Shown here one piece after another: positions 5,127 to 57,641 of a DNA stretch of 57,641 bases. The notes under the pieces are model-generated. The model ran no database searches. It saw only the letters and a program-made list of their open reading frames with translations, and was not told where the DNA came from. Source of the stretch: an uncultured Eubacteriales bacterium (GTDB lineage Bacteria > Bacillota > Clostridia > Christensenellales > QALW01); contig URYI01000001.1 of assembly GCA_900552055.1 (NCBI GenBank), positions 1 through 57,641 on the forward strand. The letters run 5' to 3'. The stretch's first letter is position 1; each line of letters starts with the position of its first letter. The position numbers and the translations under genes were made by a program.

Positions 5127-5402
5127 TACTCTAAATTGACAAGGGCATATACGGTCAGGACAGGGCTGTTTGAGTGTCCTACCGTGTTGCTTTTCGCTCC
5201 GCGTACGTCCGGTACACGTCGTTCAAGCGCCTTGCAGGGCACCTAAACTGCCGCTGTCTGACTCTTTGACCTCCAGCGGTCTGATTTCGGCATTTTCAAG
5301 GAAACGGAACGAGGCGTGCTGAACCTACGCCCATTGACGACGACGTATAAAATGCCGGAATCAGACCGTCGGAGGCGTGCATCACCTTGCCAATTTAGGG
5401 TA
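5127..5402 (+). mobile_element. Miniature inverted-repeat element, family A, copy 1 (276 bp)
   Basis: The element begins TACTCTAAATTGACAAGGGC and ends in CCTTGCCAATTTAGGGTA, the near-perfect inverse. Inside are an inverted pair (GCGGTCTGATTTCGGCATTTTC near 5276 and AAAATGCCGGAATCAGACC near 5350) and a short palindrome GTACGTCCGGTAC (5203-5215). The same sequence recurs at 28471, 51327 and 57402. No transposase frame is present, so it is non-autonomous. A TA dinucleotide at each end suggests a TA target, as used by IS630/Tc1-mariner transposases; the mobilising enzyme is not in the window. Confidence 0.85.
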
Positions 5403-28470: not shown

Positions 28471-28633
28471 TACCCTAAATTGACAAGGGCATATACGGTC
28501 AGGACAGGGCTGTTTGAGTGTCCTGCTGTGTTGCTTTTCGCTCCGTGTACTGAACATAAACCCATTGACGACGACGCAGAAAATGCCGAAATCAGACCGC
28601 TGGAGGCGTGCATCCCCTTGTTAATTTAGGGTA
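28471..28633 (+). mobile_element. Miniature inverted-repeat element, family A, copy 2 (163 bp, internally deleted)
   Basis: It begins TACCCTAAATTGACAAGGGC and ends CCCCTTGTTAATTTAGGGTA. The central 110-140 bp of other copies is missing: the sequence passes from CTCCGTGTAC directly to TGAACATAAACCCATTGACG. Other copies have GTAC at both positions, so a deletion between short repeats explains it. It lies 8 bp after the sepF operon terminator. Confidence 0.85.
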
Positions 28634-29659: not shown

Positions 29660-30199
29660 ATGCATAATTATATAAACAATTCTGAATCTTCGTTGGAGGA
29701 AACAGCGGCCAGGGAAGGCACAGCGGCCAAGCCCGGCTGTAAGAAACCGGCATGGTTAATTGTCACATTGGCCGCCGTATGCCTGGCTATAATCATTTGT
29801 TTTTTAATTTTTACCAATAAAGGCGCTGACCAAAATAATTTCTCTATAGAAAATCATGACTGGCAGTTTGTTTTGATCCAGTATAATTCAGGCGATATAA
29901 CCATCTGTTCGCCTGAAAATGCTCATTTATATGAGGAGGCAGGAATTGACCAGCTGAGACTGGAAGCTGAAAAGGGCCGCATGGTGTTAAACAGCGGTGA
30001 AAACGGAAATTCATGGGAGCTATCCTACAGCATAAACAATGTATCTCCCGAAGGCATTGTTTATGAAATTTCATACGGCGATTTAACGGGTTACGCCGGA
30101 ACAGGAATAACCAGATATCATGACGGCAGTTCGGAATACACGCTGCACCTTTCCATAGGCGGCTGCTCGGTTAAATTTATTGATAAGCTTGCGCAATAG
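29660..30199 (+). CDS. Unknown membrane-anchored exported protein
   Basis: I do not recognise this protein. It has about 179 residues: a short hydrophilic N terminus (with a KPGCKKPAW segment), one membrane helix (about 33-52), and an outside beta-rich domain with alternating polar and hydrophobic strands. The start is uncertain: ATG 29660 has GGGGAAAG 11 nt upstream, and TTG 29618 would add 14 residues. It sits between the MBL gene and nadK, each separated by more than 100 bp, so it is probably a single gene. Confidence 0.5.
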   Translation: MHNYINNSESSLEETAAREGTAAKPGCKKPAWLIVTLAAVCLAIIICFLIFTNKGADQNNFSIENHDWQFVLIQYNSGDITICSPENAHLYEEAGIDQLRLEAEKGRMVLNSGENGNSWELSYSINNVSPEGIVYEISYGDLTGYAGTGITRYHDGSSEYTLHLSIGGCSVKFIDKLAQ

Positions 30200-30264
30200 G
30201 CAAGATAAAAGAAGTCAGCAAAAGAGCACATTAATTAAATTCAGGTTATTTATAAATTATTTCC

Positions 30265-30293
30265 TTGTATATTTATGCAGTTTCGTATATAAT
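30265..30293 (+). promoter_or_regulatory. Sigma-A promoter for nadK-argR-recN
   Basis: TTGTAT (30265-30270), 17 bp, TATAAT (30288-30293), 18 bp before the nadK ATG. Confidence 0.7.
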
Positions 30294-30311
30294 ATATACG
30301 GAGGTGCGCTC

Positions 30312-31166
30312 ATGCTCAAATGTATAGGTATAATTGTCAATCTTAATAAGGATATAACCCTGGATGTTACCAGGCTTCTGATAGAGTTATTGGAAAAACG
30401 CGGAATAGAACCTCTTCTTTTTGGAGATGTGGCCGAAAAGCTGGGCCGCCCGGTTATTAACCGCGCTACTTTCTTTAACCGAAGCAACGCCATATTTGTT
30501 TTAGGCGGAGACGGCACCATGCTGGGAGTAATAGCCGAAGCCTCCATAAAGGGCAAGCCGGTTATGGGGATAAATATGGGACGCCTGGGCTTTCTTTCTG
30601 AAATTGAAATTTCAGAAATTAACGATGCATTGGATGTCATTGCCGCCGGCGATTATAAAATTGACCAACGCATGATGCTGGAATGCCGGGTCCACGGCAA
30701 GACTTTTTATGCCCTTAATGAAATTTCAGTACATAGAGCGGTATACGAACGCATTATAAGGCTGGATGTCTTTGCCGGCGACATTATGGCGGACAGTTTT
30801 TATGCCGACGGGCTCATAATAGCCAGTCCTACCGGTTCTACTGCATATTCTCTTTCGGCCGGAGGGCCTGTGCTTTCTCCCTCTCTTTCAGCCATGCTGC
30901 TTACTCCGGTATGCGCTCATACCTTAAGGTCGCGCCCTATCGTATTTCCCGATAATGAAATAATAAAAATAAGAGTGGTAGCTGATGCGGACGTATCTAT
31001 TATATACGACGGCATGGAACAGCGCCTTAATGAAAATCATGCCGAAATCACTGTTACCAGAGCGCCCTTTGACGCTAAGTTCCTGACTGTAAAAAACCGG
31101 AATTTCTATAAGCTTTTAAATTCAAAGCTGAACGAATGGAGCATTTCGGGCGAGGATAAAATATAG
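30312..31166 (+). CDS. nadK: NAD kinase
   Basis: A 284-residue ATP-NAD kinase that makes NADP. The GGDGT motif is at 65-69 in VLGGDGTMLG. NMGRLGFLSEI, the NE motif (ALNEIS) and SPTGSTAYSLSAGGP are all present. ATG 30312 was chosen because GGAGGTG lies just before it. It opens the conserved nadK-argR-recN-spoIVB-spo0A group; in Bacillus and many Clostridia dxs and tlyA lie directly upstream, but here dxs is 21 kb away. Confidence 0.96.
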   Translation: MLKCIGIIVNLNKDITLDVTRLLIELLEKRGIEPLLFGDVAEKLGRPVINRATFFNRSNAIFVLGGDGTMLGVIAEASIKGKPVMGINMGRLGFLSEIEISEINDALDVIAAGDYKIDQRMMLECRVHGKTFYALNEISVHRAVYERIIRLDVFAGDIMADSFYADGLIIASPTGSTAYSLSAGGPVLSPSLSAMLLTPVCAHTLRSRPIVFPDNEIIKIRVVADADVSIIYDGMEQRLNENHAEITVTRAPFDAKFLTVKNRNFYKLLNSKLNEWSISGEDKI

Positions 31167-31181
31167 GGAAGTGTGCAACAT

Positions 31182-31631
31182 ATGAAGTCCAAGAGACATG
31201 CTAAAATACTTGAGCTTATAGAAGCAAAAGAGCTGGAAACGCAGGACGAGCTTGCGGCCGAACTCAGCCGAAACGGCTTTCAGGTTACTCAGGCGACTGT
31301 TTCCAGGGATATTAAAGAGCTGAAGCTGATAAAGGTCCCCTCAAAAAAGGGCGGATATAAATATTCAACCGAGCACAAGAACAAAAGCGAGCAGGAAGAA
31401 CGATTTCATAAGCTTTTTGCAGGAGCGGTTCTTTCTCTCCAGGCGGCCAATAATCTTATAGTTATTAAGACCATACAGGGCAGCGCCAATACTGTGGCGG
31501 TAGTGGTGGATTCCATGACAGACGACAGGATAATAGGCTGCGTTGCCGGCGATGATACGGTGCTTGTGGTCACAGCCGATAATCAATCGGTTAAAGGCGT
31601 AATGAATCAGTTTAAAAAGCTTATGAATTAG
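31182..31631 (+). CDS. argR: Arginine repressor ArgR/AhrC
   Basis: A 149-residue arginine-responsive regulator. The N-terminal winged helix (about 1-70) has the recognition segment FQVTQATVSRDIKELKLIKV. The C-terminal hexamerisation and arginine-binding domain has GSANTVAVVVDSM and GCVAGDDTVLVVT. ATG 31182 is preceded by AGGGAAGTG; an in-frame GTG three codons earlier is inside that site. No arginine genes occur in the window. Confidence 0.95.
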   Translation: MKSKRHAKILELIEAKELETQDELAAELSRNGFQVTQATVSRDIKELKLIKVPSKKGGYKYSTEHKNKSEQEERFHKLFAGAVLSLQAANNLIVIKTIQGSANTVAVVVDSMTDDRIIGCVAGDDTVLVVTADNQSVKGVMNQFKKLMN

Positions 31632-31641
31632 GAAGGTTTAT

Positions 31642-33324
31642 ATGCTGCGCAGCCTTAACATTAAAAATATAGCCCTCATGGATAATATTAATGTAGAATT
31701 CGGAGAAGGGCTGAATGTAATTACCGGCGAAACAGGGGCGGGCAAATCCATACTGGTGGATTCGCTCAATCTGCTTTTCGGAGCCAGGGGAGATAAGGAT
31801 TTAGTCAGGATAGGGCAGAATAAGGGCTTTGTCCAGGGCAGCTTTGATATCCCCGCCGAGCGCATAAATGCGCTTGAAGAAATGGGTCTGGACGCTGAGG
31901 ACGAGTGCCTTATTTTATCGCGCGAGCTTACAAGGGACGGGAAAAGCACATGCCGGATAAACGGCCGCATTGTCACCCTGTCCATGCTGCGCGAAGTATC
32001 CTCGTGGCTGGTAGATATACACGGCCAGCATGAGCATCAGGCCCTTTTGAAAAGCGAAAACCACTTAACCTTTTTAGACGCTTATGCCGGAGAAGAAGCG
32101 CTTAATGCCAAAAGCCTGGCAGGCAGGGCTTACGAGGCATATAAAAGCGTTGAACGCAGGCTGCACGGCGATTGGGGCACTGATGAAGAAAGAGCGCGTA
32201 ATATAGACCTGCTGAAATATCAGATAGATGAAATTCAGATGGCTGAATTAGAGCCGGGCGAATTGGAAGAGCTTAACACCGAGCGCTCCAGGCTGCTGAA
32301 TGTGGAGCAGCTGGCCGAAGGCCTGGCCGAGAGCTCCCAGGCTCTTAACGGAGAAGGCGCCGCGCTGGATTATATACGTTCGGGTATAAGCGCTCTCCGT
32401 TCTTTAGAGCGCTATACAGACGATTTTGACGAATTGGTCCAGCGAATGGAATCCGCTTATTATGAATTGGAAGATATAAGCAGTGAAATATCAGAGCAGG
32501 CGGACGCTCTGGAAAACGACCCCCGCCGGTTGGAACAGGTGGAGAGCCGCATGGAGCTTATTTCGGATATTCTGCGCAAATACGGCGATACTGAAGAAAA
32601 AGCCATAGCTTACATGCATAAAGCCGAAATAGAACTGGACGAGCTTCTTAATGCCGGACAGACCATTGAAAATTTAAAAAAAGAGCTGAAAGCAAGGAAG
32701 CGCGAGCTGGACGAGGCCTGCGGCAAATTGACTGATATACGCAAAAAGGCCGCTGAGCAGCTTGCAAAAAAAATTAAATCCGAGTTAGCCGAATTAGGCA
32801 TGGATAAAGCGCTGTTCTCCATTCAGATGAACCAGAAGCCGCCCTCTCAGGACGGCGCGGATACGGCTGAATTTATGTTTTCAGCAAATCCGGGACAGCC
32901 GCTTAAGCCCTTGACCAAAATAATTTCCGGCGGTGAATTAAGCCGGCTCATGCTTGCGATAAAGGGAATACTGGCTCAAAAAGACATGATCCCCACAATG
33001 GTTTTTGACGAAATAGATACCGGCATAAGCGGCCGCATGGCAAAAGTAACTGCTGAAAAAATGGCCGGAATAGCTGCTTCGCATCAGGTGCTTTGCGTAA
33101 CCCATCTGGCGGTCATAGCCGCTATGGCCGACCGTCACTATTTTATAGAAAAAATATCCACTCAGGACAATACAGTCACCAGGCTTTCCCTGCTGGATGA
33201 GGATGGGCGTATAGATGAAATAGCCCGGCTGACAGGCGGGGGAGAAACCTCTCTTGCCCGCGGGCACGGAAAGGAAATGCTTGAATCATGCGCCGCTTTT
33301 AAGCAGAAAATCAAAAATACATAA
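31642..33324 (+). CDS. recN: DNA repair protein RecN
   Basis: A 560-residue SMC-like ATPase acting early in double-strand break repair. Walker A is GETGAGKS (29-36). The central part is a long coiled coil (about 150-370) around the zinc-free hinge. The signature motif is IISGGELSRLMLAIKG and Walker B is MVFDEIDTGISG. Length is standard. It begins 10 bp after argR and ends at its own terminator. Confidence 0.97.
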   Translation: MLRSLNIKNIALMDNINVEFGEGLNVITGETGAGKSILVDSLNLLFGARGDKDLVRIGQNKGFVQGSFDIPAERINALEEMGLDAEDECLILSRELTRDGKSTCRINGRIVTLSMLREVSSWLVDIHGQHEHQALLKSENHLTFLDAYAGEEALNAKSLAGRAYEAYKSVERRLHGDWGTDEERARNIDLLKYQIDEIQMAELEPGELEELNTERSRLLNVEQLAEGLAESSQALNGEGAALDYIRSGISALRSLERYTDDFDELVQRMESAYYELEDISSEISEQADALENDPRRLEQVESRMELISDILRKYGDTEEKAIAYMHKAEIELDELLNAGQTIENLKKELKARKRELDEACGKLTDIRKKAAEQLAKKIKSELAELGMDKALFSIQMNQKPPSQDGADTAEFMFSANPGQPLKPLTKIISGGELSRLMLAIKGILAQKDMIPTMVFDEIDTGISGRMAKVTAEKMAGIAASHQVLCVTHLAVIAAMADRHYFIEKISTQDNTVTRLSLLDEDGRIDEIARLTGGGETSLARGHGKEMLESCAAFKQKIKNT

Positions 33325-33355
33325 ATTAACAAATTGCAAAAATTCACTCCTGAAC

Positions 33356-33392
33356 AAGCTTCGGCATTTTTTGTCGAAGCTTTATTTTTTTA
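33356..33392 (+). terminator. Rho-independent terminator of recN
   Basis: AAGCTTCG (33356-33363) pairs with CGAAGCTT (33375-33382), followed by ATTTTTTT. The right arm includes TGTCGAA, a perfect match to the Spo0A box core, but the terminator explains the sequence. Confidence 0.85.
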
Positions 33393-33464
33393 ACAAGCAT
33401 ATTTGCATGCCATTTACAAAAGATATAGAAACGGAATTTTAAAATGATTTGGAGTTGAAAGAAA

Positions 33465-34712
33465 TTGAAATTTAAAAATAAATTGATAGCTCTGGCTGGC
33501 GCCGGGCTGCTTCTAACCGTCCTGAGAAGCGCGCCTCTTGTTGAGCTGTTTGAGCTGCCTGACAGGGTGGTGATTTACGAAAATGAGGAAGTAGGGCTGG
33601 AATGCTCTTTTCCGTTTAGCCTCTGCCAGAATAAAAACAGCCTGATTTTGAGTGCAAATGCAGATATTACTAATGACTCAGAGCATTTAGGCGAAGGGGA
33701 AAATGAAATAATAAGAGGCAATATACCCGTCTCCTTCCTGGGAATGGAGATTAAAAACATAGAGGTATATATACTGCCTCAAAAAACCGTTGCGCCCGGC
33801 GGAATGTGCATCGGGGTATCCTTATATACAAACGGCGTTATCGTGGCCGGAAATTCGGATATCTCCTGCGAGGGCGGCAAAAAAGTGAACCCTGCTATGC
33901 AAGCGGGGCTTTTTGACGGAGACATTATAACTAAGGTCAACGGCCAGCAGCTGCAAAACGCCCGCCAGCTTGGCCAGTTGGTGGAGGAGAGCGGAAACAG
34001 GCCCATAACTCTCACTGTGCTTAGGGACAATAAAAATGTAGAAGTTAAAATAACACCGGCCTTTGATATATACGAAAAAAAATACCGGCTGGGCTTATGG
34101 CTCAGGGACAGCACGGCCGGAATAGGCACAATAACCTATGCTGACAACCAAAATAAAAAATACGCCGCTTTGGGCCACGCCATAACCGACCCGGACACGG
34201 GAACAATTCTCCCGGTGGGAACAGGTGAAATTGTAGAATGTACTATTAACGATATCGTTAAAGGAAAAAAAGGCATACCCGGAGAGCTGAAGGGCAGCTT
34301 CCGTTTAAATTCTCCTGCATACGGCAGTATTTCCGCTAATACTGAATTTGGGCTCTATGGAGATACTTATTCGGATATAATAAATAAGCTTTATCCTCAG
34401 GGCGTGGAAATGGCCTCCAGGAACAGCGTTAAAGAGGGCAAGGCAACCATTTTAACAACAATAGACGGACAGGGTATACAAGAATATGAGATTAATATAA
34501 TAAAAGCCAATAAGCAGGATGTACGAGCGGCAAAGAGCATGATAATAGAGGTAACTGACGAAAGACTGCTTGAAAAAACCGGCGGCATTGTGCAGGGAAT
34601 GAGCGGCAGTCCTATCCTCCAGGACGGAAAGCTCATCGGAGCAGTCACGCATGTATTGATAAGCGACCCTCAAAAAGGCTATGCTCTGTATATAGATTGG
34701 ATGCAGGAATAG
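33465..34712 (+). CDS. spoIVB: SpoIVB signalling serine peptidase
   Basis: A 415-residue S55 family peptidase that crosses the inter-membrane space and triggers pro-sigma-K processing in sporulation. The N-terminal membrane helix (about 5-25) precedes a PDZ domain (about 120-200, with AGLFDGDIITKVNGQQL). The catalytic domain has ALGHAITDPDTG (histidine) and GMSGSP (378-383, serine). It starts at TTG 33465 with GGAG 9 nt upstream. It lies between recN and spo0A as in most spore formers. Confidence 0.95.
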   Translation: MKFKNKLIALAGAGLLLTVLRSAPLVELFELPDRVVIYENEEVGLECSFPFSLCQNKNSLILSANADITNDSEHLGEGENEIIRGNIPVSFLGMEIKNIEVYILPQKTVAPGGMCIGVSLYTNGVIVAGNSDISCEGGKKVNPAMQAGLFDGDIITKVNGQQLQNARQLGQLVEESGNRPITLTVLRDNKNVEVKITPAFDIYEKKYRLGLWLRDSTAGIGTITYADNQNKKYAALGHAITDPDTGTILPVGTGEIVECTINDIVKGKKGIPGELKGSFRLNSPAYGSISANTEFGLYGDTYSDIINKLYPQGVEMASRNSVKEGKATILTTIDGQGIQEYEINIIKANKQDVRAAKSMIIEVTDERLLEKTGGIVQGMSGSPILQDGKLIGAVTHVLISDPQKGYALYIDWMQE

Positions 34713-34769
34713 CAGTGCAGGCATTAACACATGCAGATATCAGTAATAACATCTTAAAAAACAGTCCAG

Positions 34770-34805
34770 CTTGGGGCGCCATTCGGTCAGGAAGGGCGCC
34801 CCAAG
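34770..34805 (+). terminator. Stem-loop after spoIVB (terminator-like, no T-run)
   Basis: CTTGGGGCGCC (34770-34780) and GGCGCCCCAAG (34795-34805) form a perfect 11 bp GC-rich stem with a 14-nt loop. There is no T-run, so it may be a weak terminator or an mRNA-stabilising hairpin. Confidence 0.55.
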
Positions 34806-34834
34806 TTGTATCAGTTCCTTGGCGGAACGGGTTT

Positions 34835-35150
34835 ATATACCGGCGGTACGCTATCGTTCTGTGAGGGATGAAATATGCTATAAATGTATGGAGAAACGGG
34901 AGATATACCGGCGGTATGCTGTCAATTTCGCTCTGCGAGCATTGAAATATGCTATAGACGTATGGAGGAACGAGATATACCTGCGGTATGCTATCAATTT
35001 CGCTCTGCGAGCATTGAAATATGCTATAGACGTATGGAGGAACGGGAGATATACCTGCGGTATGCTGTCAATTTCGCTCTGTGAGCATTGAAATATGCTA
35101 TAGACGTACGGAGGAACGAGATATACCTGCGGTATGCTGTCGTTTCGCTA
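34835..35150. repeat. Tandem repeat array, about 72 bp unit, 4.4 copies
   Basis: Units begin at ATATACC at 34835, 34903, 34975, 35049 and 35121 (lengths 68, 72, 74, 72, then a partial). Each unit has ATACCTGCGGTAT (palindrome with a 3-nt centre) and GCATTGAAATATGC (second small palindrome). The middle units are nearly identical, while the first is more diverged. The 2-bp changes in length shift the frame, so the array is not coding. It fills the gap between spoIVB and spo0A. Confidence 0.85.
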
Positions 35151-35466
35151 TTCATATTTTCGGCATTTTTAAAAGGGTGTTTTATTTAAATTACATTGAG
35201 CTGATGTCAAAATAGAGCATAACTTAAAATATAAAGGCAAGTTAATATCAAAAGGCATTGATAATAATAAATGTATATTAAGTCGATATTCGGTTCAATG
35301 CGCGTTTTTTGGAAATATCGTGCACATAGAATAGACAACAATTAAAGAAACTAATTAAAATAATTAATAATAATCTAAAATGTATAATTTTTACTTGCAA
35401 ATATTGTTAATTTTAAATATAATATATTTACTAGTCATATTATATTTATTAAGGAGGAAATTTACC

Positions 35467-36192
35467 ATGAGAATACTGCTTGGCACCACTAATAACGACA
35501 ATGCATTTGAAGGCCAGTTGGCTATAAAAGGCGTATATCAATCAGGAAAGGAATTGTATGATGCCGTTTGCGAAACCTTCCCTGATGTAGTTATAACTGA
35601 TTATATCCTGAAAGATTTGGATGGCATTGGACTATTGAAAAAGGTGGCTGGTCAGGGAAATACTAAATTTATTATATATTCAGAGCTTTCTGATGCATTT
35701 ATAACCAGAATAGCTATTTCTTTGGGAGCTGTCAGGGTTTTTAAAAAGCCGGAGGAAAAGAACCAGCTGCTGGATTTCATATCTTCCTACGCCGGCGGGG
35801 GCATCAATATAGAGGGTATCTCAAAAGAGCGCGAGAATAAGCTGGCCAAATATATTGGGGATACATTGAAGAAAATAGGCATGCGTCCCAACCTGCTGGG
35901 ATTCAATTATCTTCTGGATCTTATAATGCTTTTGGTCAGAAACGGCAATGCGTTTCCCTATTATAATAACATGGGCAAAATTTATCAGCAGCTGGCCGAT
36001 AAGTACGGGAACCGTCCTAACTGCATAGAAAGAAATATAAGAAACAGCATTGAAACTGCCTGGATATGCGGGGATTTGGATTATATTAACTCTCTGTTCG
36101 GATTCAGCATACGTTCAGATAAAGGCAAGCCTACCAACAGTGAATTTATAGGATTTATCTGTGATTACATATGCAATACCTTTGAGGAGTAA
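35467..36192 (+). CDS. spo0A: Spo0A sporulation master regulator with atypical receiver domain
   Basis: A 241-residue response regulator. The C-terminal Spo0A DNA-binding domain (about 125-240) is clear: IERNIRNSIETAW recognition region, SLFGF and KPTNSEFIGFICD. In the N-terminal receiver, the phosphoacceptor Asp45 (ITDYILKDLDG), the Ser72 switch and Lys94 (KKP) are present. The acidic pair after strand 1 (DD in Bacillus) reads Thr7-Thr8, and helix 1 is about 11 residues shorter. AAGGAGG stands just before ATG 35467, so the start is firm. The position after spoIVB and before spoIIM is canonical. Confidence 0.93.
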   Translation: MRILLGTTNNDNAFEGQLAIKGVYQSGKELYDAVCETFPDVVITDYILKDLDGIGLLKKVAGQGNTKFIIYSELSDAFITRIAISLGAVRVFKKPEEKNQLLDFISSYAGGGINIEGISKERENKLAKYIGDTLKKIGMRPNLLGFNYLLDLIMLLVRNGNAFPYYNNMGKIYQQLADKYGNRPNCIERNIRNSIETAWICGDLDYINSLFGFSIRSDKGKPTNSEFIGFICDYICNTFEE

Positions 36193-48158: not shown

Positions 48159-48247
48159 ATATATTAGCGGCTTATACATCAAGCCGAATTTTTTTGATTA
48201 TTACTATGCCGGCCGCCTGTGCGCAGACCGGAGGAAACGGAGAATAT

Positions 48248-50608
48248 ATGAGCGAGCTCACACTGCCTATGATTCCTATGAGGGGAATGGCAATATTTCC
48301 CAGTATGTCCATGCATGTGGATGTTGCGCGGGAGAAATCCAAGGCCGCAATAGAACACGCCATGCTTTCCAGCCAGCAGATTTTTTTGATAAGCCAAAAA
48401 GAGGCTGCAATAGAGGATCCCATGCTGGACGATTTAGCAAAGGTAGGCTGCGTATGCCGTATAAAGCAGGTTTTGAGGATTCCCGGCGATACTGTGCGCA
48501 TACTGGCCGAAGGCTTATACCGGGCCGAAATAAAGGCTATTACCAGCCAGGAGCATATGTTTGAGGCCGTTATAAACGAAGTAGCGGATGAATTTGTATA
48601 CGACCACATACAAGCCGCGGCCCTTATGCGCCTTATTATGGGCGTATTTGAGGAATATGCCCAGGAATCAGGCAAAGTATCCTCCGATATAATCCAGTCT
48701 CTTAAAGCGGTCAACGACCCGTCTTATTTTGCCGACCTTATGACGGCCAGCGTATTGGAAAATGATGAACAGAGACAGGAAATGCTGGATATTTTTGACC
48801 CCGTTAAACGGCTGGAGCGGCTGTATGAATTTCTTCTGTCTGAAATACAGATAATTGAAATGGAAAAAAAGATATCTGTCAGGGTAAAGCGCCAGATTGA
48901 CCAGTCCCAAAAGGAATATTATCTCAGAGAACAGGTAAAGGCCATACAAAAGGAGCTGGGCGAGGGAGATACTGAAGAAATTGAAGAACTGAATCAGCGT
49001 ATTAATAAAAGCGATATGAGCGATATAGCCAAGAAAAAGGCACTCAAAGAGCTGGAGCGCATGAAGCGCATGCCGGCGGGCATGCCTGAAGGCGCTCTGA
49101 TACGCACCTATCTGGAATGGATGCTGGAATTGCCCTGGTCTGAGGAATCAAAAGACAACGAGGATTTAGATTATGCCTCAGAGATATTGGAAGCGGATCA
49201 TTACGGCCTGCAAAAAGTTAAGGAGAGAATACTGGAATTTTTAGCGGTGCACACCCTCACAAAAAGCATGCACGGCCCAATACTCTGCCTTGTCGGCCCT
49301 CCGGGCGTTGGAAAAACCTCCATCGCCCGTTCTATAGCCAAGGCGCTTGGGCGCAGCTTTGTCAGGATGTCTTTGGGCGGAGTTCGGGACGAGGCTGAAA
49401 TCCGCGGCCACAGGCGCACTTATGTCGGCGCGCTGCCGGGTAAAATAATCTATCATATGCGCCAGGCGGGCACGGTTAATCCGCTTTTCCTGCTGGACGA
49501 AATAGATAAAATGTCCAGCGATTTCAGGGGCGACCCGGCTTCTGCCATGCTTGAGGTTCTGGATTCGGAGCAGAATAACTCCTTCAGCGACCATTATCTT
49601 GAGGTGCCCTACGATTTAAGCAAGGTTATGTTCATTACTACCGCCAATACCTCCGATACTATTCCGCGTCCCCTCCTTGACCGCATGGAGCTTATTCAGC
49701 TTTCGGGCTACACCGACCAGGAAAAGCTCCAGATTGCCAAACGGCATCTTCTGCCCAGACAGATAAAGGAGCACGGCCTGAAAGAAGCTTCAGTAACAAT
49801 AACAGACGAGGCTCTCTTAAAAATAATAAACGACTATACGCGGGAAGCAGGCGTAAGGAGCCTTGAACGCCGCCTGGGGGCTATTTGCCGCAAGGCAGCA
49901 ATAGAAGTGGTTAAAAACAAAACCGAAAATATAACTGTTGATATAAATAATCTTGAGCATTATTTATCTGATAAGAAAATACACAGGGGAGACGCCAATA
50001 AAAAGGATGCCATAGGCATAGTTACCGGCCTGGCCTGGACCAGCGTAGGCGGCGAAACCCTTAACATAGAAACGGCAGTTATGCCGGGCAGCGGAGAATT
50101 AGTGCTTACCGGCCACCTGGGCGACGTTATGAAGGAATCCGCAATGACGGGAATGGGCCTTATACGCGCCAATGCCGAAAGCTGGGGCATTAATCCGGAT
50201 TTCCATAAGAAAAAGGATATCCATATCCATATTCCCGAAGGAGCAATGCCCAAGGACGGACCATCCGCCGGCATAAGCATGTTTACCGCTATGGTTTCTG
50301 TGCTGAGCGGCATTCCCGTGCGCTGCGATACAGCCATGACAGGCGAAATAACGCTGAGCGGCAGTGTTCTGCCCATAGGAGGGCTTAAGGAAAAAGCGCT
50401 TGCGGCATACAGGGCAGGGATAAAACGCATAATAATACCTGCGGATAATATGGAGGATATATCCGAAATCCCCGAAGAAATAGCAGGGGAAATAGAATTT
50501 ATTCCGGTCAGCCAAATTAACCAGGTGCTTAAAAACATACTTGTAAGGATGCCGGTAAAAAAGGAAAGCGGCAGGAGGGCTGTTAATGATGGAGATAAAA
50601 AGAGCTGA
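48248..50608 (+). CDS. lon: ATP-dependent protease Lon (LonA)
   Basis: A 786-residue LonA. The N-terminal substrate domain opens LPMIPMRGMAIFPSM. A coiled coil follows (YYLREQVKAIQKELGEG). The AAA+ module has GPPGVGKTS and FLLDEIDKM. The C-terminal peptidase has the Ser-Lys dyad in PKDGPSAGISM (serine near 678) and GGLKEKALAAYRAG (lysine). ATG 48248 has GGAG close upstream; the frame is open 18 codons further but lacks similarity. engB overlaps its end by 23 bp. Confidence 0.97.
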   Translation: MSELTLPMIPMRGMAIFPSMSMHVDVAREKSKAAIEHAMLSSQQIFLISQKEAAIEDPMLDDLAKVGCVCRIKQVLRIPGDTVRILAEGLYRAEIKAITSQEHMFEAVINEVADEFVYDHIQAAALMRLIMGVFEEYAQESGKVSSDIIQSLKAVNDPSYFADLMTASVLENDEQRQEMLDIFDPVKRLERLYEFLLSEIQIIEMEKKISVRVKRQIDQSQKEYYLREQVKAIQKELGEGDTEEIEELNQRINKSDMSDIAKKKALKELERMKRMPAGMPEGALIRTYLEWMLELPWSEESKDNEDLDYASEILEADHYGLQKVKERILEFLAVHTLTKSMHGPILCLVGPPGVGKTSIARSIAKALGRSFVRMSLGGVRDEAEIRGHRRTYVGALPGKIIYHMRQAGTVNPLFLLDEIDKMSSDFRGDPASAMLEVLDSEQNNSFSDHYLEVPYDLSKVMFITTANTSDTIPRPLLDRMELIQLSGYTDQEKLQIAKRHLLPRQIKEHGLKEASVTITDEALLKIINDYTREAGVRSLERRLGAICRKAAIEVVKNKTENITVDINNLEHYLSDKKIHRGDANKKDAIGIVTGLAWTSVGGETLNIETAVMPGSGELVLTGHLGDVMKESAMTGMGLIRANAESWGINPDFHKKKDIHIHIPEGAMPKDGPSAGISMFTAMVSVLSGIPVRCDTAMTGEITLSGSVLPIGGLKEKALAAYRAGIKRIIIPADNMEDISEIPEEIAGEIEFIPVSQINQVLKNILVRMPVKKESGRRAVNDGDKKS

Positions 50609-51182
50609 ATATGCTTACGGCTTTGCACTGCCTGAGCAGTACCGTCCCGGCAGCCTGCCTGAAATAGCTGTGGCCGGGCGCTCAAATGTAGGCAAATCCA
50701 GCCTTATAAATATGCTTACCCGCAACTCCAAGCTGGCCAAAATAGGCAAGACTCCGGGCAAGACAAGAATTATAAACGCTTTTATCATCAATCAGAGCTT
50801 TTGCCTTATGGATTTGCCCGGATACGGCTTTGCTAAAATAGAAGAAAAAGAAAAGCAGCGCTTCAGTGAGCTGATTGAATATTACTTAAATAGCAGCGCA
50901 CAGCTGAAACATGTATTTCTGCTTCTGGACATACGCCATCAGCCCACATCTGACGATAAAATGATGCTGGACTGGCTTTATTATTATCAAAAACCCTTCA
51001 GCATTATTGCAACAAAAGCGGATAAGCTTTCCAGGGCACAGCAGGCAAAGAGATTAAATGAGCTTTCACGGGAGACAGGGATAATCACATCCGGCATTTA
51101 TCCCATTTCATCTGTAAACGGCAGCGGCCGGGAACGGCTGCTTGAGCGCATGGAGGAATTAATTTATCCAAAAGGAGAATAA
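50586..51182 (+). CDS. ysxC: Ribosome biogenesis GTPase EngB/YsxC
   Basis: A 198-residue GTPase needed for 50S assembly. GRSNVGKS (31-38), DLPGYGFA (G3) and TKADK (G4) are present, and it begins IKRAEYAYGFALPEQYR. AGGAGG lies before ATG 50586; a second ATG follows at once. It is translationally coupled to lon, the order in Bacillus (lonA-ysxC). Confidence 0.95.
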   Translation: MMEIKRAEYAYGFALPEQYRPGSLPEIAVAGRSNVGKSSLINMLTRNSKLAKIGKTPGKTRIINAFIINQSFCLMDLPGYGFAKIEEKEKQRFSELIEYYLNSSAQLKHVFLLLDIRHQPTSDDKMMLDWLYYYQKPFSIIATKADKLSRAQQAKRLNELSRETGIITSGIYPISSVNGSGRERLLERMEELIYPKGE

Positions 51183-51326: not shown

Positions 51327-51627
51327 TACCCTAAATTGACAAGGGCATATACGGTCAGGACAGGGCTGTTCACGTGCCGTGTTGCTTTTCGCTCCGTGTA
51401 CGCCCGGTACACGTCGTTCAGGCGCCTTGCAGGGCACGGAAAACGGCCGCTGTCTGACTCTTCGGCCTCCGGCAGGTCTGATTCCGGCATTTTCAAGGAA
51501 GCGGAATGAGGAATAAGGAATGAGGAATGAGGAATGAGGCGTACTGAACGCACACCCATTGACGACGACGCAGAAAATGCCGGAATCAGACCGCCGGAGG
51601 CGTGTATCCCCTTGTCAATTTAAGGTA
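51327..51627 (+). mobile_element. Miniature inverted-repeat element, family A, copy 3 (301 bp)
   Basis: It starts TACCCTAAATTGACAAGGGC and ends CCCCTTGTCAATTTAAGGTA. It has the full internal inverted pair (GTCTGATTCCGGCATTTTC near 51476 and GAAAATGCCGGAATCAGACC near 51573). Unlike other copies it has a local run of GGAATGA-like repeats (51506-51537). Its right end lies 17 bp upstream of the OLE-like RNA. Confidence 0.87.
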
Positions 51628-51639
51628 AATAAATATGAT
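51612..51639 (+). promoter_or_regulatory. Hybrid promoter for the OLE-like RNA (-35 in mobile element end)
   Basis: TTGTCA (51612-51617) is part of the element's right terminal repeat; after 16 bp comes TATGAT (51634-51639) in the flanking DNA. Transcription would start near 51645-51647, at the first bases of the closing helix of the RNA. Confidence 0.6.
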
Positions 51640-51643
51640 TGTT

Positions 51644-52229
51644 AAGGTGGTGCAGTATTCTAGTCAGTTCGCCGTGCCTTGAAGACGGGATTAAAAAATC
51701 GTCAAAGGGCATATCGATGAAGTTTCTTGTGCAGGCTTCGGACGCCCAGTCCGGGGTTTGTGCTGGGAGTTAAGGCGGTTGGGCGATCCGCAATGGCATG
51801 CGGGCGTTGACCCAGCCGCCGCGGAGACATATTGCGGTGGCCTTTTATAAGCTACTGAATATGGATGAACCTGCTATGCGGTGCTGTTTAATGGCGCTGT
51901 GTACAGCGTAGCCTGCCTTGAGTGGATTTTGAGGGATAAAGGAACACCCGTTTAAAGCACGGCCATGCATAAGCGGAGTGACGGCCTTTTGAAATCTTAT
52001 CTGCAAAAGAGGCTAGAGGCACGGCGCGCTGCCGAGGAAATCTCCTAGACTGTTTACGGCATTTCGGGGATTATAGTGTGGTCTAAGTGGCTATCGAGCG
52101 TTGCGTACCGGCGACGGCGCAATACGTCCTTTAATGGGAAACCGCCCTTTCGGCGACGGGGGGCAGGACGCAGGGAAATCCGGCTCGACCTAAGCCGCAA
52201 GGTTTACCCGATTTGCTACCACCTTTTTT
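51644..52229 (+). ncRNA. ole: OLE RNA (ornate large extremophilic RNA) candidate
   Basis: There is no gene in this GC-rich stretch, but dense stem-loops are present. AAGGTGGT (51644-51651) pairs with ACCACCTT (52218-52225), and GCA/TGC extends this across a bulge, closing a domain of about 582 nt. A T-run follows. Inner helices include CGGAC/GTCCG (51739-51753), GGCGGTTGGG/CCCAGCCGCC (51774-51783 with 51811-51820), CGCTG/CAGCG (51895-51908) and CGGCT/AGCCG (52181-52197). OLE RNA is known to be about 600 nt, abundant, and encoded just before oapA and dxs in Bacillota, where it forms a membrane RNP linked to cold, alcohol and Mg2+ stress. Size, helix closure and context all fit. Base-level match to the OLE consensus was not checked. 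Confidence 0.83.
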
Positions 52230-52354
52230 ATTTTATCCATGCCCGGCGCTTAATTCTGACAGCCGCCTAAAACGGCTGCGCAAAACCTATAGGCTGCGAA
52301 AAACCTATAAAACAACAAAGGAAACCGGGCAGGGATTAAATTGGAGTGTTTTTA

Positions 52355-52939
52355 TTGAAAAATACTGATAATAACAAAAAATCACAAAAACCAAAGCCAG
52401 GCATTAATTGGGCCATTAAAGCAACCGTTATCTCATTTTTCATGACTATAGCCTTTTCGCTGTTTTCTGAACTGGTTGTCGGCTCTGCTTCTGTATATAT
52501 TTCCGCCTGTATAGTTCTGCTGCTGGTAATTATAAGCATAGCTTTTGATATGATAGGCACCGCTATGGCCTCAGCCGAACAGGCGCCCTTTGTAGCCATG
52601 TCCAGCCGCAGGGTAAGAGGAGCCAAAGAAGTGCTGGGGCTTATAAAAAACACCGACAAAGTCTGCAGCATATGCAACGATATAGTAGGAGATATATGCG
52701 GAATTGTTTCGGGCGCCGCAACTTCAGCCATTATCTATAACGTAGTTATTGCCCGCAATATATCCAGCTCATGGCTAGAAATGATTTTTACTATATTTTT
52801 CAGCGCAGTGGTGGCCTGTTTGACTATAGGCGGAAAAGCCTTCGGCAAAACCATAGCTCTGAATAAAAGCAAGGATATACTTCTGCTTGTAGGAGTTTTT
52901 CTGTCCCTGTTTAAAAAGAAGGATAAAGCAAATGATTGA
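52355..52939 (+). CDS. oapA: OLE-associated membrane protein OapA
   Basis: A 194-residue basic membrane protein with four predicted helices (about 21-41, 46-68, 112-132, 141-158), a Lys/Gln-rich N terminus and a cytoplasmic loop with SSRRVRGAKE. OapA is the four-helix protein that binds OLE RNA and brings it to the membrane. It lies between ole and dxs, exactly as here. Its sequence has a distant resemblance to CorB/DUF21 transport proteins, which may cause misannotation. The start is TTG 52355 with GGAG 8 nt upstream; GTG 52346 abuts that site. It overlaps dxs by 8 bp, so the two are co-translated. Confidence 0.82.
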   Translation: MKNTDNNKKSQKPKPGINWAIKATVISFFMTIAFSLFSELVVGSASVYISACIVLLLVIISIAFDMIGTAMASAEQAPFVAMSSRRVRGAKEVLGLIKNTDKVCSICNDIVGDICGIVSGAATSAIIYNVVIARNISSSWLEMIFTIFFSAVVACLTIGGKAFGKTIALNKSKDILLLVGVFLSLFKKKDKAND

Positions 52940-54761
52940 TATAGATATTAATAAGCTTAAGCGCATGACTCCGGCTGAAATGTACCAGCTAAGCGCCCGG
53001 ATCCGTGAGGAGCTTATAAATGTAACCCTAAAAAACGGCGGACATCTGGCGTCCAATCTGGGCGTAGTAGAGCTTACCCTGGCTTTGCACTACGTTTTTG
53101 ACAGCCCAAGGGACAAAATAGTATTTGACGTAGGTCATCAAACGTATATACATAAAATACTTACCGGACGCGCGCAAAGCTTTGAAAGCATCCGCACTAA
53201 AGACGGTTTAAGCGGATTTTCCAACCGCCTGGAAAGTGAACACGACCTTTTTACCACCGGGCACAGTTCGGCCAGTATTTCAGCCGCGCTGGGGCTGGCC
53301 AGAGCGCGCGACCTTAAGGGGGAAAACTACAACGTTGTCGCCGTTATAGGAGACGGCGCGCTGGGCGGGGGCATGGCTCTTGAGGCCATAAATGATTTGG
53401 GCTATAAAAAAAGCCGGCTTATAATAGTGCTCAATCAAAATGATATGTCCATTGCGCAGAATGTCGGAGCGCTTTCAGAGCATCTTACTATGCTGCGCAC
53501 CACCCGGCCCTACGCAGATTTTAAAAAGGGCCTGACCAGGTTCCTGAACTCCGTTCCTCTTATAGGCAAGCCTCTGTATAAGCTGCTTGAACGCATTAAA
53601 AATTCAATCAGATATATGATTATGGGGGACACGCTGTTTGAACGCCTGGGCATAAAATATCTCGGCCCCATAAACGGCAATGATATACCGGCGCTTATCA
53701 AAATTCTGGAGCGTACCAAGCAGGAGGACGGACCGGTGCTGGTGCATGTAGCCACTAAAAAAGGGAAAGGCTATCCGCCGGCGGAAAATAATCCGGAAAA
53801 ATATCACGGAGTATCCCCCAGCGGCGGATGCGCAGAAAAATCAGAAAGCTTTTCACTGGCAATGGGAGAAGAGCTTATCCGCCTTGCGCGGCAAAATGAC
53901 AAAATCTGCGCTGTTACCGCAGGCATGCCTCTGGGAACCGGCCTCCAGCATTTCGCCGCGCTCTATCCCTCCCGCTTTTACGATGTGGGAATATGCGAGC
54001 AGCACGCTCTGGCTCTGGGCGCAGGGCTTGCCGCAGGGGGCATGCGTCCCTTTGTAGCGGTTTATTCTACTTTTCTGCAAAGAGGGCTTGACCAGCTGTT
54101 CCATGACATATGCCTCCAGAACCTGCCCGTCATTATTTTAGAGGACCGTTCGGGACTGACCGGCGAAGACGGGGAAGCGCATCAGGGCATATACGACCTG
54201 GGTTTCCTCAGGAGCATGCCCAGCCTTACTATAATGGCTCCGAGAGATATCCCAACGCTTAAATACATGATGGAGCTCGCTCTTAAAAGCAGCGCCCCTT
54301 GTGTAATACGCTATCCCAAAGGCTGCTCTCTTAAAATAGCTTCCGGCCAGCCGTTAATGCCGTATAAATGGCAGACTGTGCGAAAATCAGGCGGACGCAT
54401 TATCCTGCTGGCCTTTGGGGCCATGCTGAATCAGGCGCTTAAAGCGTCCGAGCTTTTGGAGGCGCAGGGAATAGAGGCGGACGTAGCAGACGCCTGCTTT
54501 ATAAAGCCCATAGACACTCAATTCCTTACTGAGTGCCAGGCTCACAGCCTTTTATTTATCATTGAGGATAATGTATGTCCGGGCGGACTGTTTGAAGGGG
54601 TAAGCGGATATATGGAATCTGAAAAAAAGGAAGTTCGGGTAATAGGCATGAATCTTGCAGACGCAATAGTGCCGCACGCTTCCATAAATCAGCAGCGCGA
54701 GATGTTCTGCCTTACTGCTGAAGATATTGCCGCAAGGGTTATATCTGAATTAAAGGACTAA
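52932..54761 (+). CDS. dxs: 1-deoxy-D-xylulose-5-phosphate synthase
   Basis: A 609-residue thiamine-diphosphate enzyme that condenses pyruvate and glyceraldehyde-3-phosphate, the first step of the MEP isoprenoid pathway. It begins LKRMTPAEMYQLSARIREEL. FDVGHQTYIHKILTGR and IGDGALGGGMALEAIND bind the cofactor. ICEQHA holds the catalytic glutamate, and LTGEDGEAHQGIYDL is conserved. In most Bacillota tlyA and nadK follow; here a long non-coding repeat region follows instead. Confidence 0.97.
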   Translation: MIDIDINKLKRMTPAEMYQLSARIREELINVTLKNGGHLASNLGVVELTLALHYVFDSPRDKIVFDVGHQTYIHKILTGRAQSFESIRTKDGLSGFSNRLESEHDLFTTGHSSASISAALGLARARDLKGENYNVVAVIGDGALGGGMALEAINDLGYKKSRLIIVLNQNDMSIAQNVGALSEHLTMLRTTRPYADFKKGLTRFLNSVPLIGKPLYKLLERIKNSIRYMIMGDTLFERLGIKYLGPINGNDIPALIKILERTKQEDGPVLVHVATKKGKGYPPAENNPEKYHGVSPSGGCAEKSESFSLAMGEELIRLARQNDKICAVTAGMPLGTGLQHFAALYPSRFYDVGICEQHALALGAGLAAGGMRPFVAVYSTFLQRGLDQLFHDICLQNLPVIILEDRSGLTGEDGEAHQGIYDLGFLRSMPSLTIMAPRDIPTLKYMMELALKSSAPCVIRYPKGCSLKIASGQPLMPYKWQTVRKSGGRIILLAFGAMLNQALKASELLEAQGIEADVADACFIKPIDTQFLTECQAHSLLFIIEDNVCPGGLFEGVSGYMESEKKEVRVIGMNLADAIVPHASINQQREMFCLTAEDIAARVISELKD

Positions 54762-57198: not shown

Positions 57199-57401
57199 AC
57201 CATATAATTAGAGCACAATGCGCTTTACCCAGAATATATGCCGCTTCTGCCTGGCTGCGCGGCTCTAAAATCCCCGGATCTTTTTTCATGCGCCCGTCCT
57301 GCGGCCGCTCTGCGGGCATTCGGCGCCAGAATCTCATAAGGCCGAATAAGGAGGTTTTATAACTTTGCAGAACGGCGGCGCGCAGTAATGCTTAAATACT
57401 T
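57199..57401. other. Intergenic region after sigE
   Basis: About 200 bp with no gene. CACAATGCGCTTTACCCAGA (57213-57232) loosely resembles the subterminal sequence of fold-back elements C and D (AATGCG core), so it may be a degraded relative. No clear terminator was seen for sigE. Confidence 0.4.
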
Positions 57402-57641
57402 TACCCTAAATTGACAAGGGCATATACGGTCAGGACTGTTTGAGCGTCCTGCTGTGTTGCTTTTCCCTCCGTGTACGTCCAGTACACGTCATTCAAGCGC
57501 CTTGCAGGTTACTCAAACATCCGCTGCCTGACTCTTCGACCCCCAGCGGTCTGATTCCGGCATTTTCAAGGAAGCGGAACGAGGCGTACTGAACGCACAC
57601 CCATTGGCGATGACGCAGGAAATGCCGGAATCAGGCCGCTG
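57402..57641 (+). mobile_element. Miniature inverted-repeat element, family A, copy 4 (right part outside window)
   Basis: It starts TACCCTAAATTGACAAGGGC and carries the GTACGTCCAGTACAC centre (a variant of the usual palindrome), the AGCGGTCTGATTCCGGCATT arm and the AATGCCGGAATCAGGCCGCT arm, where the window ends. Orientation is the same as in the other three copies. Confidence 0.85.

Follow-up and report, generated by a model that had tools for sequence, protein, structure and literature searches.

A full-length OLE RNA gene with oapA and dxs away from its usual neighbors, a putative repeat-borne promoter element, and relatives that carry OapA without OLE

The DNA analyzed here (hereafter the window, i.e., the whole stretch of 57,641 nt) carries a series of genes near its right end. 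Downstream of tig, clpP, and clpX, it contains lon (48194..50608, +; Pfam) and a GTPase gene of engB type (50586..51182, +; MMR_HSR1 in Pfam), for which the name engB is presumed from the gene order. These are followed by a MITE-like repeat (51327..51627, +), the gene for OLE RNA (51631..52238, +), oapA (52346..52939, +), and dxs (52932..54761, +; DXP_synthase_N, 374.6 bits in Pfam). Downstream of dxs are spoIIGA and then a sigma-70-family gene. For SpoIIGA, a single match carried a name, a metagenome-assembled genome called Selenomonadales bacterium at 77%, which we do not use as a taxonomic assignment. A sequence-only reading of this DNA had named lon-engB as upstream neighbors and dxs as downstream gene, both of which are supported by the Pfam matches. 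To our knowledge, OLE ranks with the largest of the structured bacterial RNAs for which no biochemical function is known.

The Rfam covariance model of OLE (RF01071) gave the only Rfam match in the window at or above the gathering threshold. It covers positions 1–616 of the 616 model positions (492.9 bits, E = 1.2e-141, gathering cut-off 50) and extends from 51631 to 52238 on the + strand, so the OLE call of the sequence-only reading is borne out across both ends of the RNA. The start proposed in that reading (51644) adjoins the conserved core GGUGG, which begins at 51646. Inside this 608-nt RNA the list of open reading frames holds short mechanical ORFs only.

To analyze covariation, we used an alignment of 70 OLE sequences, i.e., the window, 64 sequences from genomes in the order to which its closest relative belongs, and five from named contigs; 13 long, divergent, or distant loci among the 83 OLE loci were excluded before counting. 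The Rfam structure, transferred from the window, comprises 154 pairs, 138 of them standard and 16 nonstandard in the window. Double-sided changes were found in 119 of the 154 model pairs, so compensatory changes are present in relatives. Over the alignment 85.8% of cells pair, compared with 40–44% when the partners are slid, a control that is biased toward the Rfam structure because the structure was taken from one of the 70 sequences. The P9 arm is weak, with two helices pairing in just 43% and 40% of cells, which reflects a difference either in alignment or in structure. The helix that had been proposed to close the RNA end to end is missing from the Rfam structure line; it joins 51644..51652 with 52217..52225 (+) and is followed by a T-run (52224–52230). 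This helix is paired in 90.1% of cells of the 70 sequences, and double-sided changes occur at six of its nine pairs, a count reached by 13 of 500 shuffles; its covariation score was reached by none of the 500. Sliding the partners by one or two columns lowered pairing to 23–43%, and sliding by three columns to 72–76%.

Two sites of known protein contact have probable counterparts in the window. The putative equivalent of the OapC k-turn, whose role in OLE is described in passages of PMC9723947, lies at 51713..51774 (+), where C85 corresponds to 51715 and G144 to 51774 if the RNA is numbered from 51631. Both columns are invariant in 70/70 sequences, and this pair therefore yields no covariation evidence. 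A hairpin with the loop GGCGAC (52141..52168, +) presumably represents P13, the published OapB site; the G, G, A, and C of its GG..AC loop are likewise invariant in all 70. The window thus shares with the full-length type of OLE (as described in excerpts of PMC11332333) the whole model, an adjacent OapA, and the k-turn and loop positions, and differs from it by lon-engB upstream and by a putative repeat-borne −35 box. Variants 1 and 2 described in the same excerpts, from the TANB77 and RF39 gut clades, have similar gut-type hosts, but the window RNA is 608 nt long, matches the full model, and keeps the presumed OapB loop.

The window RNA is a full-length OLE and an ordinary addition to the known class. 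The 17 named relatives include several metagenome-assembled genomes from the rumen or animal gut, from which a mesophilic host is plausible, although no source is given for the closest of them (L001). According to parts of PMC11332333, the OLE class already spans 2,822 genomes of Bacillota, with gut lineages among them, and has been reported from anaerobes and uncultured gut lineages; thus, neither the RNA nor a mesophilic host is new. The suggestion that OLE may have a wider role than its name indicates is likewise already in print (same excerpts).

The oapA gene begins about 110 nt 3′ of OLE on the same strand. It encodes 197 amino acids from GTG at 52346, or 194 from TTG at 52355, with GGAG at 52342; the TTG is the likely start, in agreement with the 194-residue OapA of the first reading. 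The assignment is based on homologues and on the CNNM profile of Pfam (29.1 bits, cut-off 28.4). About two dozen homologues among the 120 matches listed are near 90% identity. Residues W22, D68, M85, D112, D116, G123, K164, and K168 are invariant in 41 OapA sequences. Like the CNNM metal transporters MpfA and CorB, OapA matches Pfam CNNM, whereas it is just 194–197 residues long, has the conserved DxxxD motif (residues 112–116; 52679..52693, +), and shows no further Pfam domain. In an AlphaFold2 model of the window protein (mean pLDDT 81.0), residues 79–101 fold into a pair of short helices located between long helices two and three, beside the DxxxD helix. By analogy with H. halodurans, in which OLE and OapA were shown to form a membrane-bound RNA–protein particle in metal-ion and stress responses, the window RNA would fold and bind the CNNM-like membrane protein OapA, and a similar particle may operate here.

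The genes nadK-argR-recN-spoIVB-spo0A, the usual downstream neighbors of ole-oapA-dxs, sit together at 30180..36192 (+; Pfam), 15–21 kb upstream of the OLE block and without OLE. Because this cluster stayed behind, while one relative (L002) retains dxs followed by nadK and argR, it is supported that ole-oapA-dxs moved as a block. This part of the claim of a noncanonical setting held up; the other part, that ispA is the norm upstream, did not, as an upstream gene other than ispA is common. The upstream gene could be read at 79 OLE loci; ispA directly precedes OLE at 26 of them and lies at most three genes away at 33 (G060 and G159, two of the 79, were taken in the wrong orientation, and the available DNA shows no ispA at either). 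Other upstream genes include FtsW/RodA, SfsA, DUF212, PTS EIIC, and LysM proteins (Pfam), and some loci follow putative recA or recG. Varied neighborhoods of OLE are already in print (passages of PMC12265935). The lon-engB pair upstream of OLE is unique to the window in comparison with the 82 other loci clustered. The dxs gene was found among the next genes in 41/83 OLE loci, several of which are cut short. No match to plasmids was detected for the region, and none to viral contigs for OapA. A 142-nt repeat occurs three times, in imperfect form, between spoIVB and spo0A (34854–35141).

The 301-bp MITE-like repeat directly upstream of OLE (51327..51627) has 33-nt inverted ends with TA at both, and its mobility is predicted from this form. 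The inverted ends bear TTGTCA facing outward, and the copy in the right end (51612..51617, +) is the putative −35 box of OLE. The repeat ends 6 nt before the putative −10 box, TATGAT (51634..51639, +), whose position is conserved across loci. Together, TTGTCA-16-TATGAT makes 10/12 promoter matches with a 16-nt spacer; promoter-like sites occur on the opposite strand too. Since its −35 lies inside the repeat, OLE in the lineage of the window is probably expressed from a hybrid promoter. Three other copies are present in the window on the same strand (5127–5402; 28471–28633, which lies 1.5 kb before nadK; and 57401–57641, after the sigma-factor gene and reaching the window end). In 396 relatives, with two candidates scored per genome, only short pieces were detected, in 19 genomes and mostly of a simple-repeat stretch; the same search found no full copy, empty site, or transposase source. 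Comparison of the repeat with phages and of its end with viral contigs also gave no match. The element shares with TA-type MITEs a short noncoding form, inverted ends, TA at both ends, and several copies, and differs from them in that neither a transposase source nor an empty site was found among these relatives; it looks recent and MITE-like.

We then analyzed promoter-like boxes at the other OLE loci. A −10 box of 5/6 or better, 3–14 nt before GGUGG, is present in 60 of 82 loci (upstream DNA was too short at the remaining locus of the 83), compared with a mean of 7.1 and a maximum of 14 in 200 control draws from 60–450 nt upstream; when a −35 box of 4/6 or better is also required, 43 of 82 loci remain (control mean 1.5, maximum 6), the control being partly coding DNA, poorer in A+T, so that chance matches in A+T-rich gaps may be underestimated. 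The closing CCACC-type motif occurs in 78 of the 83 loci and is absent from five; in 58 of the 78, a T-run comes after it (control 17%). Both the boxes and the T-run suggest that OLE in the order of the closest relatives of the window is often its own transcription unit with a sigma-A-type promoter. The promoter frequency did not differ between loci with and without ispA nearby (16/33 vs. 25/46). No promoter statement for ole itself was found in the passages searched, which come from the later OLE literature.

Taken together, we are highly confident that the window holds a full-length OLE gene which lies, with oapA and dxs as a block, away from its usual neighbors, and whose product would be an RNA with its own promoter and, by analogy, part of a membrane ribonucleoprotein. 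Transcription would probably start from the sigma-A-type promoter just before the first conserved base, and the RNA would be closed by the end-to-end helix and then the T-run. OLE might instead mainly be a leader of the oapA-dxs mRNA that acts in cis and not as a free RNA. The same direction of oapA and its distance of about 110 nt would fit such a role, as would the T-run, which forms no canonical terminator (a simple scan listed none at the OLE 3′ end). However, the end-to-end helix with its T-run argues against it, and in H. halodurans OLE is known to occur as an abundant RNA of its own (excerpts of PMC12265935), which makes the leader role very improbable.

A more serious doubt concerns the repeat, which may have left OLE expression unchanged if the −10 box alone suffices or if transcription reads through from lon-engB. 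In 22 of 82 loci there is no −10 box of 5/6 or better, and in H. halodurans OLE belongs to a polycistronic transcript (passages of PMC12265935); on the other hand, TTGTCA-16-TATGAT lies where the relatives carry their boxes, so that an unaltered expression is possible but the less probable case. As same-strand copies occur 1.5 kb before nadK, directly before OLE, and after the sigma-factor gene, recombination between repeat copies could also have relocated the block, and the dxs-nadK-argR order kept in L002 would agree with this. Yet with four copies in 57.6 kb such nearness is plausible by chance, no full copy and hence no intermediate was seen in the 396 relatives (two candidates scored per genome), and many relatives have ole elsewhere without the repeat. 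We consider this route unlikely. With a hybrid promoter as the preferred reading, the window adds a clean full-length OLE and a case of a repeat element supplying part of a promoter.

Among the named relatives, OLE was detected at 15 of the 16 oapA loci scanned (L017 lay outside the scan); the exception, L008, starts 12 nt before oapA. The contig L013, labeled delta proteobacterium, has a full OLE-oapA-dxs with Clostridia-like neighbors and is probably a misnamed assembly. For the OLE partner OapB, PF00467 failed to single out the protein, and the gap between map and infA was read instead. An ORF of 91–114 amino acids lies there in 10/10 relatives, including one genome without OLE, and is a candidate OapB; the one compared (from G001) matched the solved OapB structure 7k9b with an E-value of 7.8e-10. 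We take the position before rpsL to be that of OapC, and an L7Ae-family ORF, the candidate OapC, was found there in eight of the ten relatives; G001 and G002 contain no rpsL, so nothing follows on OapC in them. MpfA-like proteins, defined as strong CNNM matches (cut at ~1e-12), occur in 24/82 genomes with OLE and 58/69 without (P = 7e-12, uncorrected for kinship; 151 genomes), which repeats the published anticorrelation of OLE and MpfA (parts of PMC11332333).

What is new lies in the relatives that have OapA but no OLE and, to a lesser degree, in the putative repeat-borne promoter element. Of 151 genomes of the order, 80 contain OLE and OapA, 2 OLE only, 15 OapA only, and 54 neither, a tally which assumes that the 151 lie within the set of 396 relatives searched for OapA. 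OLE was thus not found in 15 of 95 oapA-bearing genomes, whereas excerpts of PMC11332333 raise the possibility that neither OLE nor OapA ever occurs without the other. In the two OLE-only genomes, G053 and G094, no OapA match was obtained; a 196-residue ORF after OLE in G094 may be a divergent OapA. That strict filters had missed OLE in the OapA-only genomes was not supported by a renewed search with E-values up to 1, which found OLE in 0/15 of them and in 13/13 OLE genomes, although an all-negative answer is no proof. At 11 of the 15 loci, which were examined individually, no OLE was detected up to E = 0.1. A match in L172 proved spurious (9.6 bits), and this locus, whose contig ends just before oapA, was set aside. 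The remaining ten (L166–L171 and L173–L176) belong to genomes G018, G020, G040, G049, G109, G111, G120, G125, G135, and G147.

In most of these ten loci there is no room for OLE. The longest oapA ORF begins 39–91 nt after the upstream gene at nine loci and 287 nt after it in L175; measured to the first aligned OapA residue, the gap does not exceed 184 nt at nine loci and is 293 nt in L175. As read from translations, oapA is preceded by ispA at six of the loci, by proS at three (in genomes of ~0.9 Mb), and by a hydrogenase-like gene at the remaining one, and homology places dxs after oapA in 6/10. By comparison, OLE lies upstream of oapA in 59/59 further loci (L177–L235), which were drawn from a listing that favors high OapA scores; L236, which covers the L176 region a second time, is excluded from this number.

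To examine how OapA differs where OLE is absent, we compared 120 OLE-linked and 10 OLE-less proteins (of 139 loci submitted, 133 gave a match, from which a contig-edge row and two sequences with internal stops were removed). D68, D112, D116, G123, K164, K168, and A171 are present in 130/130, the two Asp residues of DxxxD thus being kept in all 120 OLE-linked and all 10 OLE-less proteins. By contrast, M85 is found in 119/120 OLE-linked vs. 2/10 OLE-less proteins (lost in eight), P81 in 115/120 vs. 2/10, and G92 in 106/120 vs. 4/10. Eight distant OLE-bearing OapA proteins all have M85 and G92, and none has P81. Without OLE, M85 persists in L171 and L176, whose proteins stand apart from the other eight on the tree, with weak branch support (0.82 and 0.62), a placement that would match recent losses of OLE. 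On the tree, OLE loss requires four changes, of which two fall on well-supported branches. The association between OLE loss and decay of the loop was not significant for the two supported independent pairs (agreement in direction in a mean of 1.5 pairs for M85 and 0.8 for G92); resting on few events, i.e., two well-supported clades, it cannot reach significance.

With moderate confidence, we propose that the OapA loop around Met85 is its RNA-facing part (residues 80–94, including Met85 and Gly92; 52583..52627, +). We tentatively suggest, with somewhat more doubt than conviction, that OapA outlives OLE: the RNA next to oapA would have disappeared on two or more occasions in the order, perhaps on four, the membrane core (D68, DxxxD, G123, K164, and K168) would have a job independent of the RNA, and loop 80–94 would meet the RNA. 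Relatives with the partner protein and without the RNA could help to show what each part does, and their oapA loci represent natural ole deletions in which OapA alone, and the part of it that serves the RNA, may be tested. Near two OLE-less oapA loci, both in genomes of ~0.9 Mb, there are matches to the L20 leader below its cut-off of 58.7 bits (L168:3488-3614, 46.5 bits; L173:981-1109, 49.2 bits).
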